In this document: positions 55,138-57,697 of the stretch, one piece after another
Numbering within the stretch: the first letter of the stretch is position 1
Layout of the letters: each line of letters starts with the position of its first letter
Assembly: GCF_003063245.1 (NCBI RefSeq)
Contig: NZ_MUXE01000006.1
Location: 1 to 64,000, forward strand
DNA from: Arcobacter caeni
Lineage (GTDB): Bacteria > Campylobacterota > Campylobacteria > Campylobacterales > Arcobacteraceae
Length of the DNA stretch: 64,000 bases
Direction of reading: 5' to 3'
The notes under the pieces: model-generated
The model's input: the letters and a program-made list of their open reading frames with translations, nothing else
Databases searched by the model: none
Told to the model about the DNA's origin: nothing
Made by a program: the position numbers and the translations under genes

Positions 55138-55245
55138 TTAAAATAATTCTGAGTGTTTACCGACTCTAATTAATAAACCTTTATTTTTTTGTGATAATTT
55201 TTTATAATCTTTTTTAAAAGAAGAGGTTCTAAAGATTTGATACAT
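55138..55245 (-). pseudogene. internally deleted YafQ/RelE-family toxin
   Basis: A 35-codon ORF whose ATG overlaps the antitoxin stop (TAATG), the usual layout of relB/yafQ-type pairs. Its first 22 residues (MYQIFRTSSFKKDYKKLSQK...) match the N terminus of YafQ-type toxins. Its last 12 (LLIRVGKHSELF) match their C-terminal strand, including the family histidine of the T-x-x-S/A-LF end. The 50 or so residues in between are missing and the join keeps the frame. The product cannot form the RNase fold, so the toxin is almost certainly inactive. Confidence 0.75.
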
Positions 55246-55496
55246 TAATTATCCAAATCGTCAAATAATTCATCAATATTTTTGAAAGTTTTACCATCTT
55301 TATTTTCTAACTCTTTTAAAGCTTTTTTTGTTTTATTATTTTGAATTTTAACTTCAAAAGGTAAGCCATTATTTAAAATAATCATTTTATTAAAAACACT
55401 GATAGCTTGAGAATAATTTAATCCTAAATCATTTAGAATTTCTTTTGCTTTATTATAAGATGATTCATCAACTCTAATTGTTGTTTGAGTTTTCAT
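55245..55496 (-). CDS. RelB/DinJ-family antitoxin
   Basis: An 83-residue antitoxin with an N-terminal ribbon-helix-helix (TQTTIRVDESSYNKAKEILNDLGLNYSQAISVFNKMI) and a C-terminal toxin-binding tail (ELENKDGKTFKNIDELFDDLD). Upstream is a GGAG site. The partner toxin gene is a remnant, so the antitoxin may now act only as a repressor of its own promoter or against a related toxin elsewhere. Confidence 0.9.
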   Translation of the reverse strand: MKTQTTIRVDESSYNKAKEILNDLGLNYSQAISVFNKMIILNNGLPFEVKIQNNKTKKALKELENKDGKTFKNIDELFDDLDN

Positions 55497-55595
55497 AGAA
55501 ATTCTCCATTTTAAATATTATAAAAGTATATCCCATTTAAAGTATAAATAGTATAAAAGATAAAACAAAAAATAATTTGCTTAACCTTTTATTAA

Positions 55596-55617
55596 CGCTC
55601 CCACCCAACACTACCCA
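55596..55617. repeat. 22-nt G-rich block, copy 1
   Basis: On the minus strand this reads TGGGTAGTGTTGGGTGGGAG plus CG. It matches the block at 57549-57570 at 21 of 22 positions. Both lie just past the terminator of a small-RNA gene. It is strikingly G-rich for this genome. Confidence 0.7.
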
Positions 55618-55698
55618 TAAAAAAAGGGGATAAGGAAAAATCCTTAGCCCCTTTTTTCAGCGTCCATTTGGGTAATCACTCCCAAAAATCTTTAAATC
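55618..55698 (-). ncRNA. candidate small RNA, copy 1 (downstream of porin)
   Basis: A predicted 81-nt RNA starting about seven bases after a TACAAT -10 element. It holds a stem-loop with stem TTTGGG/CCCAAA (55681-55686 with 55667-55672) and loop AGTGATTA (55673-55680), and an intrinsic terminator (stem 55626-55636 with 55641-55651, one mismatch, then seven T on the minus strand). The layout and loop match the RNA at 57573-57662 although the stem bases differ, which indicates selection on structure. No adjacent target peptide ORF with a good start was found here. Confidence 0.65.
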
Positions 55699-55704
55699 GA
55701 TAAA

Positions 55705-55733
55705 ATTGTACTTTAAAAATATTCTGATGTCAA
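55705..55733 (-). promoter_or_regulatory. sigma70 promoter of small RNA copy 1
   Basis: On the minus strand TTGACA (55733-55728), a 17-nt spacer, and TACAAT (55710-55705). A full -35 match is rare in this lineage, where most promoters rely on the -10 element. Confidence 0.75.
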
Positions 55734-55765
55734 GAAATTCTTTTTAATTAATTTTAGAAATAAAA

Positions 55766-55794
55766 AAAGGCTAGAGAAAAAATCTCTAGCCTTT
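55766..55794 (-). terminator. porin gene terminator
   Basis: AAAGGCTAGAGA and its exact complement around AAAAA; on the minus strand it ends in a seven-T run 30 bases after the porin stop. Confidence 0.85.
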
Positions 55795-55823
55795 AAGAAA
55801 AAAGTTTTTATACTCTAAAAATA

Positions 55824-57170
55824 TTAGAATGTATATTCAACTTGTAATCTTCCTCTTACATCATCATTGATATCAACTGAACTAGTATTATCAGAAGCTT
55901 CTTTAGTATATGTTCCATATCTAACATAAGTGTTTAAATTTTTACTCATTTTATACATTAATTGAGCATAAATTTCTTCTTCTTCAACATCTACAGTTGA
56001 ATTAGCAGCTGCAATATATTGAATATTTCCATAGTTAGCTGATAAGTTTAAGTTAGATAAAATATCTACACCAGCAACTACTTGCCAGTAATCAGCATCC
56101 GCTTTACCATTAGATGTAATAGACCAACCTAATAATGTTGTAGTAGCATCATTATCTAATGCAGTTAACCCACCTTCTTTACCAGTCATTGCATACGCAA
56201 CTTTAGCATCAAAAATTCCTGCTTTTGCAGTTAAAGCAAGTTTTGCAATAGAGTTATCTTCTTCTGCAACACCATTTGCACTAATTACATCTTTAAGAGC
56301 AACAGCAACAGATTTATCTAAAGAAAGAGAAGCATATCTTGCATCAATACCTAATTTAACTCCTGATAAATCCAGAGATGATTTCGCACCAACAGTGTAA
56401 GAATCAAATTTATCTTGAGCATCTAAATACCATGCATCAATTGTAACTGGACCAGCAACAACTATAGCACCAATTGTTGCGATATCTTCTGAACCATCTA
56501 ATACATTACCTTTAACAACAGCAGCATCAATAATATCTTCATCAGGACTTGTGTCATTTGCAAATCCACCTAGTTTAGCATCTAAAGAATTATTTAAATT
56601 TGTTTGATTGAAATATGCAGCAGCTAAAGTAACTGGTCCTACTGTTGAAAGAGCTAGGATACCAGTTCCTGTTTGTTCATTTCCATCAGAATCTACCGCA
56701 ACAGTCCATGGAGTTGTTAAACCTTGTTTACCAACATTTACAGTTGTATTTTTGATTCCTGTATAACCAAAGTAAGCATTAGTTAACTCAGTACCAACAT
56801 TTTGGTCTCCATTTTCACTTGAATTTAGAGAAGCAAAACCTGCATCACCAGTTCCAGTACTTGTTGGCGCACCAACAACAAATCTTGAGTTAAATTTAAC
56901 ATCATCATTTACTTTTGAAGATAGACCAAGTGCAACTTTATAATTATTAGTTGCAGAAGATTCTTTAGATAAATCTTTTTTATCAGCACCAAGTTTACCA
57001 TTGTATAATGATCCTGCTGTTGTATCATTAGAGTTATCATTATATCTATAAACTACAGATCCTGTTACTTCTACATTTTTGATTGCTTCTTCTAATGGTT
57101 GAGCATTAGCAGTAGTTAATCCCATAACTGCAACAGCAGCTACTAAACTTAATTTTGCGATTTTTTTCAT
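55824..57170 (-). CDS. outer-membrane porin (campylobacterotan MOMP/OprD-like)
   Basis: A 448-residue outer-membrane beta-barrel: signal peptide 1-23 (MKKIAKLSLVAAVAVMGLTTANA), many alternating strands with turns rich in Asn, Asp and Gly, and a C-terminal phenylalanine (GRLQVEYTF) for BAM recognition. The N-terminal NVEVTGSVVYRYNDNSND is like Campylobacter major porins. It probably forms the main pore for small solutes. Monocistronic, with a 540-base non-coding region upstream and small-RNA genes on both sides, so post-transcriptional control is possible. Confidence 0.85.
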   Translation of the reverse strand: MKKIAKLSLVAAVAVMGLTTANAQPLEEAIKNVEVTGSVVYRYNDNSNDTTAGSLYNGKLGADKKDLSKESSATNNYKVALGLSSKVNDDVKFNSRFVVGAPTSTGTGDAGFASLNSSENGDQNVGTELTNAYFGYTGIKNTTVNVGKQGLTTPWTVAVDSDGNEQTGTGILALSTVGPVTLAAAYFNQTNLNNSLDAKLGGFANDTSPDEDIIDAAVVKGNVLDGSEDIATIGAIVVAGPVTIDAWYLDAQDKFDSYTVGAKSSLDLSGVKLGIDARYASLSLDKSVAVALKDVISANGVAEEDNSIAKLALTAKAGIFDAKVAYAMTGKEGGLTALDNDATTTLLGWSITSNGKADADYWQVVAGVDILSNLNLSANYGNIQYIAAANSTVDVEEEEIYAQLMYKMSKNLNTYVRYGTYTKEASDNTSSVDINDDVRGRLQVEYTF

Positions 57171-57440
57171 TTGTTCTCCTAAAATTTCGAAATTCTATTT
57201 TCAGTCTATCGGAGCGCGCGAACTCATCTAAAACTTATAGTCTTAAACCTTTTCCGACATACCGTTGCGACCATTCTACATTACTAAATTTTAAAGTTTT
57301 CTTAAAATGTGATTTTTGGTGTTAATTAACTGTTAATTTAAGTTAACTTTCAATTAACCTTTTGTTATTGCTGTGTTATTGCTATTTAAGAGTTTTTTGG
57401 TCTTGTTTATATAGTAGAAATAAAGTTATGAAGTAGTAAC
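57171..57440 (-). promoter_or_regulatory. porin upstream region
   Basis: The AGGAGAAC ribosome site is followed by ATG 57170. Upstream is a patch unusually rich in G and C (around 57209-57265, including GCGCGC) that would form the 5' leader. Further up is a cluster of five GTTAAT/GTTAAC repeats (57320-57358) of operator type. No single promoter could be fixed with confidence. No ORF of interest was seen here. Confidence 0.4.
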
Positions 57441-57441
57441 A

Positions 57442-57465
57442 GGGGAGTGACTAATTCCCCCTTTT
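57442..57465. terminator. hairpin with the small-RNA loop complement
   Basis: GGGGA (57442-57446) pairs with TCCCC (57456-57460) and is followed by CTTTTATT on the plus strand. The plus strand shows AGTGACTA at 57446-57453. The minus-strand transcript of the peptide ORF, whose stop is at 57467, carries TAGTCACT here, the exact complement of the loop of the small RNA at 57622-57629. Confidence 0.6.
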
Positions 57466-57466
57466 A

Positions 57467-57529
57467 TTAATACATTTTGATAGCAAAGACCAAAAGTATT
57501 AAAATTAATACTACTAATTTGAACTGCAT
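57467..57529 (-). CDS. 20-residue hydrophobic peptide, candidate type I toxin
   Basis: ORF of 20 codons, ATG 57529 to TAA 57467, preceded by AAGGA six bases upstream. Product MQFKLVVLILILLVFAIKMY: one hydrophobic helix with Lys near each end, very like Ibs-type and other type I toxin peptides that insert in the inner membrane. The start region (57514-57535) is complementary to the 5' end of the small RNA encoded 110 bases upstream on the same strand. The 3' flank carries a hairpin complementary to that RNA's loop. Toxicity is inferred; no family match was computed. Confidence 0.6.
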   Translation of the reverse strand: MQFKLVVLILILLVFAIKMY

Positions 57530-57548
57530 TTAATTTCCTTTCAATAAA

Positions 57549-57570
57549 CGCTCCCACCCAGCACTACCCA
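57549..57570. repeat. 22-nt G-rich block, copy 2
   Basis: Matches 55596-55617 except for one base. On the minus strand it sits between the small-RNA terminator and the ribosome site of the 20-codon ORF, and so would be part of the peptide mRNA leader. Its GGGTAG can pair with CTACCC in the terminator stem just upstream. Confidence 0.7.
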
Positions 57571-57572
57571 CA

Positions 57573-57662
57573 TAAAAAAAGGGTAGGAATAAATTCCTAC
57601 CCTCTACATTTATCTAGTAAGTAGTCACTCTTACAAGAAAAATTAAATGTTTAGTTCAAATT
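57573..57662 (-). ncRNA. candidate antitoxin small RNA, copy 2 (upstream of porin)
   Basis: A predicted 90-nt RNA. The 5' end (AATTTGAACTAAACATTTAA, 57662-57643) can form two 10-bp helices with the start region of the 20-codon ORF, separated by a small internal loop. A central stem-loop has stem GTAAG/CTTAC (57630-57634 with 57617-57621) and loop AGTGACTA (57622-57629). A terminator follows: stem GGGTAGGAAT (57581-57590) with its complement ending at 57602, then T run. It also lies after folB and could end that transcript. Confidence 0.68.
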
Positions 57663-57668
57663 AGAAAA

Positions 57669-57697
57669 ATTATACACAAAAAATAATTGTTTGTCAA
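57669..57697 (-). promoter_or_regulatory. consensus sigma70 promoter of small RNA copy 2
   Basis: On the minus strand TTGACA (57697-57692), a 17-nt spacer, TATAAT (57674-57669): a perfect match to both hexamers with the best spacing. It lies just after the folB stop at 57711. Confidence 0.85.

Follow-up and report, generated by a model that had tools for sequence, protein, structure and literature searches.

A candidate tandem toxin-antitoxin module of Campylobacterales whose antitoxin RNA and toxin mRNA probably share one promoter

In the Arcobacter caeni window (the whole stretch of 64,000 nucleotides analysed here), a region of about 270 bases on the minus strand, adjoining an outer-membrane porin gene, holds what we take, with a probability of roughly 0.7, to be a type I-like toxin-antitoxin module in which the antitoxin RNA and the toxin mRNA come from one promoter. 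Its parts follow each other in the order promoter, RNA of ~89 nt, strong terminator, G-rich leader, 20-codon ORF and 3' hairpin. A type I-like module had been proposed at this place by a sequence-only reading of the window, and that proposal is now supported, at the level of sequence comparison, by a conserved ORF and by compensated pairings, with the toxicity of the peptide and the RNAs themselves being predicted. What this comparison supports is the layout, the four pairings and the protein-coding character of the ORF.

Parts of the module and their conservation

The promoter consists of TTGACA (57697-57692), a 17-nt spacer and TATAAT (57674-57669) on the minus strand, and matches the consensus at 12/12 positions, as the sequence-only reading had said of 57697-57669; it probably drives the antitoxin RNA and the whole module with it. 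The small RNA would run from ~57662, a start placed by the distance from the -10 element, to 57574, and its predicted fold is stable relative to dinucleotide shuffles (z -4.7). It contains a hairpin (57634-57617) with the loop AGTGACTA (57629-57622), complementary to the loop of the 3' hairpin, and ends in an intrinsic terminator (57605-57574) with a 12-bp stem and T7, in agreement with the RNA gene of about 90 nt and the good terminator originally described. Start sites, terminator strength and read-through are predicted from sequence in all that follows. Behind the terminator comes the toxin leader (57573-57530), which is present in the 51 loci introduced below and has no promoter-like site; it is made up of a G-rich element (57569-57551), a site called C' (57551-57544) and the SD AAAGGA (57541-57536). 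The G-rich element, GGGTAGTGnTGGGTGGGAG and variants of it, is strongly conserved, and it might serve in processing, form a G-quadruplex or act as a folding switch. Its pairing with the C-rich 3' arm of the 3' hairpin, which looked promising by eye, was rejected as it showed no cognate preference (z +0.9).

The 20-codon ORF MQFKLVVLILILLVFAIKMY lies at 57529-57467 on the minus strand with AAAGGA upstream, so that the hydrophobic reading frame and the AAGGA site reported from the letters are indeed present. Its length is exactly 20 codons in nearly all 51 loci, with ATG, TTG or GTG as the start, and the loss of the ORF in relatives keeping the RNA, which would have spoken against the module, is not what the loci display. 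Codon position 3 is the most variable and position 2 the least, dN/dS is 0.33, and the ORF evolves as a coding sequence. The peptide consensus is M-x-x-[KR]-[LI]-V-V-L-L-L-I-L-L-V-F-A-T-[KR]-L-Y. As in type I systems, the candidate toxin gene thus codes for a small hydrophobic product, of 20 aa and of the form M-x-x-[KR]-hydrophobic-[KR]-L-Y, and this product could be a membrane-inserting toxin peptide. No family in Pfam or NCBIfam matches the peptide, and none in Pfam, NCBIfam or Rfam matches the module, which is a real and apparently undescribed family. Past the stop codon lie a 3' hairpin (57462-57441, minus strand), whose loop TAGTCACT (57453-57446) has a YUNR U-turn, and a 3' tail (57440-57430). 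The U-turn is found in 46/51 loci, compared with 21.6 expected from shuffled loops.

Related genomes were searched with BLAST and with covariance models, the latter having been suggested as a check by the sequence-only reading, and the same module was recovered at 51 complete loci, extracted from Arcobacteraceae and from other families of the order Campylobacterales. Within the genus, BLAST gave 14 distinct loci, and the ORF is intact in 13. With a covariance model for the toxin region (R1), 40 matches were obtained, in 27 of the 104 genomes of the family and 11 of its 20 genera; across the order R1 matched in 27 of 399 genomes, and a broader model (R3) in 28 of 399 genomes and 13 of 87 genera. 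A model called R2 matches the small RNA with and without the toxin. Every one of the 51 loci has a promoter-like site, an RNA of ~81-100 nt, a terminator, a leader of ~40-66 nt, the ORF and the 3' hairpin, and the upstream promoter is close to consensus in most of them (perfect TATAAT in 37/51, perfect TTGACA in 29/51).

Four pairings within and between the two RNAs

Four pairings were tested by comparing cognate with non-cognate energies over the 51 loci, and the z values below come from permutations that ignore relatedness among loci. The first, site A, joins the 5' end of the small RNA (57662-57640) to the SD and start region of the toxin message in two blocks: AATTTGAACT (57662-57653) pairs with AGTTCAAATT (57525-57516), and CATTTAATTT (57649-57640) with AAATTAAATG (57536-57527). 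This is the complementarity of 10 + 10 bp noted at the outset, and in the window its duplex reaches -18.7 kcal/mol, a value that 0/5000 dinucleotide shuffles equalled. Over the 51 loci, cognate partners give -18.7 and non-cognate partners -7.4 kcal/mol (z -25), and in 41 loci the best of all 51 partners is the cognate one; the RNA pairing with the toxin mRNA that characterizes type I systems is therefore seen here at the sequence level as a cognate-specific complementarity to the SD and start. Kinship among the loci is ignored in these statistics, yet the start sequences differ widely and two distant loci outside the set agree: found by the toxin-region model alone, they also have the small RNA, with site A energies of -25.0 and -28.3 kcal/mol. 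A few loci (L072, L093 and L106) have a weak site A.

At site B, the loop AGTGACTA of the small RNA (57629-57622) is the exact complement of the loop TAGTCACT (57453-57446) past the stop of the ORF, just as the sequence-only reading had it. At least 6 contiguous Watson-Crick bases are kept in 49/51 loci across 21 sequence variants, among them GAGTGATTA/TAATCACTC, GTGGTTA/TAACCAC, TGATAA/TTATCA and TGGCTA/TAGCCA, and the cognate test gives z -11; the loops of L104 and L105 pair poorly. Both pairings claimed from the window alone are hence kept in relatives with compensating changes, as the cognate test of site A and the loop variants indicate.

The other two had been missed at first reading. 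Site C is the spacer of the small RNA between hairpin and terminator (57613-57606), which pairs with the leader at 57551-57544, just upstream of the SD; over the 51 loci the cognate energy is -8.6 versus -4.1 kcal/mol (z -16.7). Sites A and C flank the hairpin of the small RNA, and their partners are neighbours on the mRNA, which leaves this hairpin free to bulge out and contact the 3' loop. Site D lies within the toxin message, where the stretch of ORF codons 5-8 (57515-57509) forms a long-range helix with 57438-57432 in the 3' tail; 6 of its 8 pairs are changed on both sides in 14 sequences, and the cognate test over the 51 loci gives z -14.7.

Transcription, rival readings and spread

Whether one promoter or two serve the module was left undecided by the sequence-only reading, and a single promoter with read-through is now favoured: a terminated antitoxin plus a read-through toxin mRNA has the better support, since the loci share no promoter-like site between terminator and ORF. 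From the T run to the SD of the 51 loci, the closest approach to a -10 element usually agrees at 3 or 4 of 6 positions, fewer than in shuffled leaders, and in the body of the small RNA there is no excess of -10-like sites over shuffles. These counts speak against a tandem type I pair with two promoters, in which the toxin promoter would lie in or near the G-rich leader and the small RNA would act only in trans. Such a pair would be in keeping with most known type I toxins, which have their own promoter, and with the orphan small RNAs described below, which imply action in trans; the conserved leader could moreover hold a non-sigma-70 promoter, and a promoter of a type outside our scan could drive the toxin. 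We nevertheless regard two promoters as unlikely, and read-through into the toxin gene would be the simplest and likeliest reading of these sequences.

If the toxin is reached by read-through, the antitoxin is also held in cis in the read-through RNA. The RNA spanning the whole module is predicted to fold more stably than shuffles (z -7.0) with its 5' end on the SD and start, and the start region is paired with the 5' end of the small RNA in the predicted read-through RNAs of 41/51 loci. The predicted median unpaired probability from SD to AUG is 0.22 in the read-through RNA, versus 0.42 in an RNA starting after the terminator.

In the single-promoter scheme, for which we infer toxicity, read-through, processing and the order of decay, most transcripts would stop at the first terminator and yield the ~89-nt antitoxin RNA, and a minority would pass the terminator and extend over the 20-codon ORF, which would encode a membrane-inserting peptide. 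The first contact of the antitoxin with the toxin mRNA would probably be loop-loop kissing with the U-turn loop of the 3' hairpin; the 5' end and the spacer of the small RNA would then zip across the SD and start and the preceding leader, its hairpin bulged between them, so that translation would be blocked. The read-through RNA, carrying the antitoxin sequence at its own 5' end, could block its own ribosome site in cis, and 5' processing would thus be needed for a translatable mRNA, the body of which would be folded by the helix between ORF and tail. Once transcription stops (loss of a plasmid, a phage, stress), the short RNA would decay first and the processed toxin mRNA would be translated.

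The ORF might also code for a small membrane protein that is controlled by the RNA and is not a toxin, such as a modulator of an envelope protein. Small single-span proteins do have many roles, and the toxin role proposed here is a judgement from sequence; the traits of the module, however, are those of an addiction module, namely several silencing pairings, a patchy spread in multiple copies, a plasmid copy and the lack of any intact toxin found without its RNA, and we consider a non-toxic function quite unlikely. The spread is patchy, most copies sit at unrelated places, and one copy is on pACIB, a 237-kb plasmid of Aliarcobacter cibarius whose annotation has no gene for it, with an adjoining Fic gene and an integrase gene ~2 kb away. 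Because of this patchy spread, the plasmid copy and the empty sites in sister species, a mobile addiction-type module fits. A phage origin was considered and dropped, as neither phage records nor viral contigs, the latter screened with a strict pattern, yielded a match to the module. In another family of the order, the modules at L096 and L099 have a neighbouring ParE/RelE-like toxin gene on their upstream side (PF05016 at L096, similar by eye at L099); modules thus share neighbourhoods with type II systems.

Units of the small RNA without a toxin occur at four or five loci of the genus (55731-55591 in the window, L053, L119, L140 and a partial one upstream of L051). The copy in the window, on the minus strand downstream of the porin gene and missed at first reading (R2 match, E 2.3e-8), keeps promoter, small RNA, terminator and G-rich leader next to a decayed toxin ORF. 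No intact toxin without the small RNA was found, the sole ORF of this kind (L109) also being without leader and SD; orphan RNAs on one side and no intact RNA-less toxin on the other make up the asymmetry that toxin-antitoxin logic predicts. The same orphans bear on a cis-only riboregulator, in which the 'small RNA' would be the attenuator leader of a small-peptide mRNA, without action in trans. The predicted fold of the read-through RNA does place the 5' end over the start site and blocks it, and all pairings could form in cis; against this, the RNA unit is retained, complete with promoter and terminator, where the toxin is missing, one orphan (L140) has a matching toxin at another place in its genome (-24.9 kcal/mol), and U-turn kissing loops are known from two-RNA contacts in Fst/RNAII (PMC7472228), all of which makes regulation in cis alone very unlikely. 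For the orphan in the window, no good site A partner was found in its genome. This orphan adjoins a RelB-family antitoxin gene (55245-55496, PF04221). At the corresponding place in genome G001, an intact module (L041) adjoins prfB, a gene also found downstream of the porin in the window, and the orphan is probably its decayed counterpart. At L138 (G021:C13:2910-2976), a complete module is immediately preceded by a second hairpin and terminator resembling those of the small RNA, which looks like a duplication of the antitoxin.

The module lies between folB and the gene for a Campylobacter-type major outer membrane protein (MOMP) porin (57170-55824), directly upstream of the latter as the sequence-only reading had stated, and this position is what a role of the RNA in regulating the porin could appeal to, a role that we reject, given that the folB-porin interval is present without the module in a dozen sister species and that the other copies mostly lie elsewhere. 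Since sister species have the interval without it, the module is an insertion rather than the leader of the porin gene. Contig C33 of this genome carries a second full copy, and further copies were located by sequence search. The MOMP porin is flanked by modules on both sides in the window (55591-57697, minus strand), apparently also in G001, and in G007 and G008 copies lie within a few kb of a porin gene or of the conserved region upstream of one; modules may have a hot spot at the porin locus. On both sides of another G001 module (L040, G001:C1:2679300-2680400) stands a direct repeat of ~40 nt consisting of the 3' end of folB, a pattern suggestive of an insertion in which either the target was duplicated or a gene end was brought along.

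The module would bring a widespread and unannotated family of RNA-controlled peptides to a phylum for which the literature we found names only AapA/IsoA as type I, and would show a type I antitoxin and its toxin mRNA as two outcomes of one transcription start. With fewer than 300 bases, it would be a minimal model for telling apart, by experiment, read-through at the terminator, folding in cis, pairing in trans and processing, and its naturally varied pairings (51 loci, 21 loop variants) would provide a ready set for studying the specificity of RNA partners.

Comparison with known systems

In Fst/RNAII, the par system of pAD1, the loop contact is made at a 3' hairpin with a YUNR U-turn, and pairing spreads to the SD and start codon (PMC7472228). 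The module resembles it, in sequence features, by complementary loops at a 3' hairpin, a U-turn and complementarity to the SD and start. The par genes, however, converge on one shared bidirectional terminator, which makes their loop complementarity inherent, whereas the module is tandem and its two separate hairpins have been kept complementary; its peptide has 20 aa and no charged tail, versus 33 aa in par. We do not place the module in the Fst family, the genes being tandem, the peptide having no Pfam match, and Rfam fstAT finding nothing above its cut-off.

The Ibs peptides, of 19 aa, are likewise very short and hydrophobic, and like the 20-residue peptide described here they end in Y. A further likeness is that Sib RNA has two recognition domains (PMC8309996), and a difference is that Sib is antisense to ibs, whereas the RNA of the module lies upstream on the same strand. 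The resemblance to Ibs drawn by the sequence-only reading holds for size and hydrophobicity only, and not for the Pfam Ibs model: PF13956, which exceeds its cut-off in one control genome, found nothing over the cut-off in this genome and did not pick up the ORF. Together with a Sib score below the Rfam cut-off and the position of the RNA on the same strand, this led us to reject membership in Ibs/Sib. Rfam sbrA of Listeria gave a weak match of 31 bits, below the cut-off of 45.

AapA/IsoA, from Helicobacter and hence from the same phylum, has a toxin mRNA kept inert by a long-distance fold between its 5' and 3' ends, and an antisense RNA, IsoA (PMC6733600). The AapA fold hides the SD; in the module, the tail pairs with codons 5-8 and this conserved helix leaves the SD uncovered, the predicted cis block coming from the small RNA part upstream. 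Nor is there an antisense overlap, the small RNA being upstream on the same strand in all loci.

It is with type III systems that the operon plan is shared. In ToxIN and AbiQ, one promoter is followed by the antitoxin RNA, an intrinsic terminator and a toxin reached by read-through (PMC5086642, PMC8167048), and a terminator between antitoxin and toxin has been called unique to type III in a review (PMC5086642). The module has the same gene order behind one promoter, antitoxin RNA, intrinsic terminator and downstream toxin gene, at the 51 loci, with transcripts being predicted. In type III, on the other hand, a repeat RNA binds a ribonuclease protein, whereas the RNA of the module has no repeats and would pair with an mRNA whose product is a peptide of 20 residues. 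Tandem orientation alone is not new, because some adjacent type I antitoxins are, according to another review, parallel to their toxin (PMC8167048); in the open-licence literature we found no description of a single promoter combined with an intervening terminator and with a cis and trans role of one RNA, and nothing useful on type I systems in Arcobacter or on a transcript-start map of the genus. On balance, we think it somewhat better than an even chance that the module joins the operon plan of type III to the base-pairing of type I, and that this combination has spread over the order Campylobacterales.
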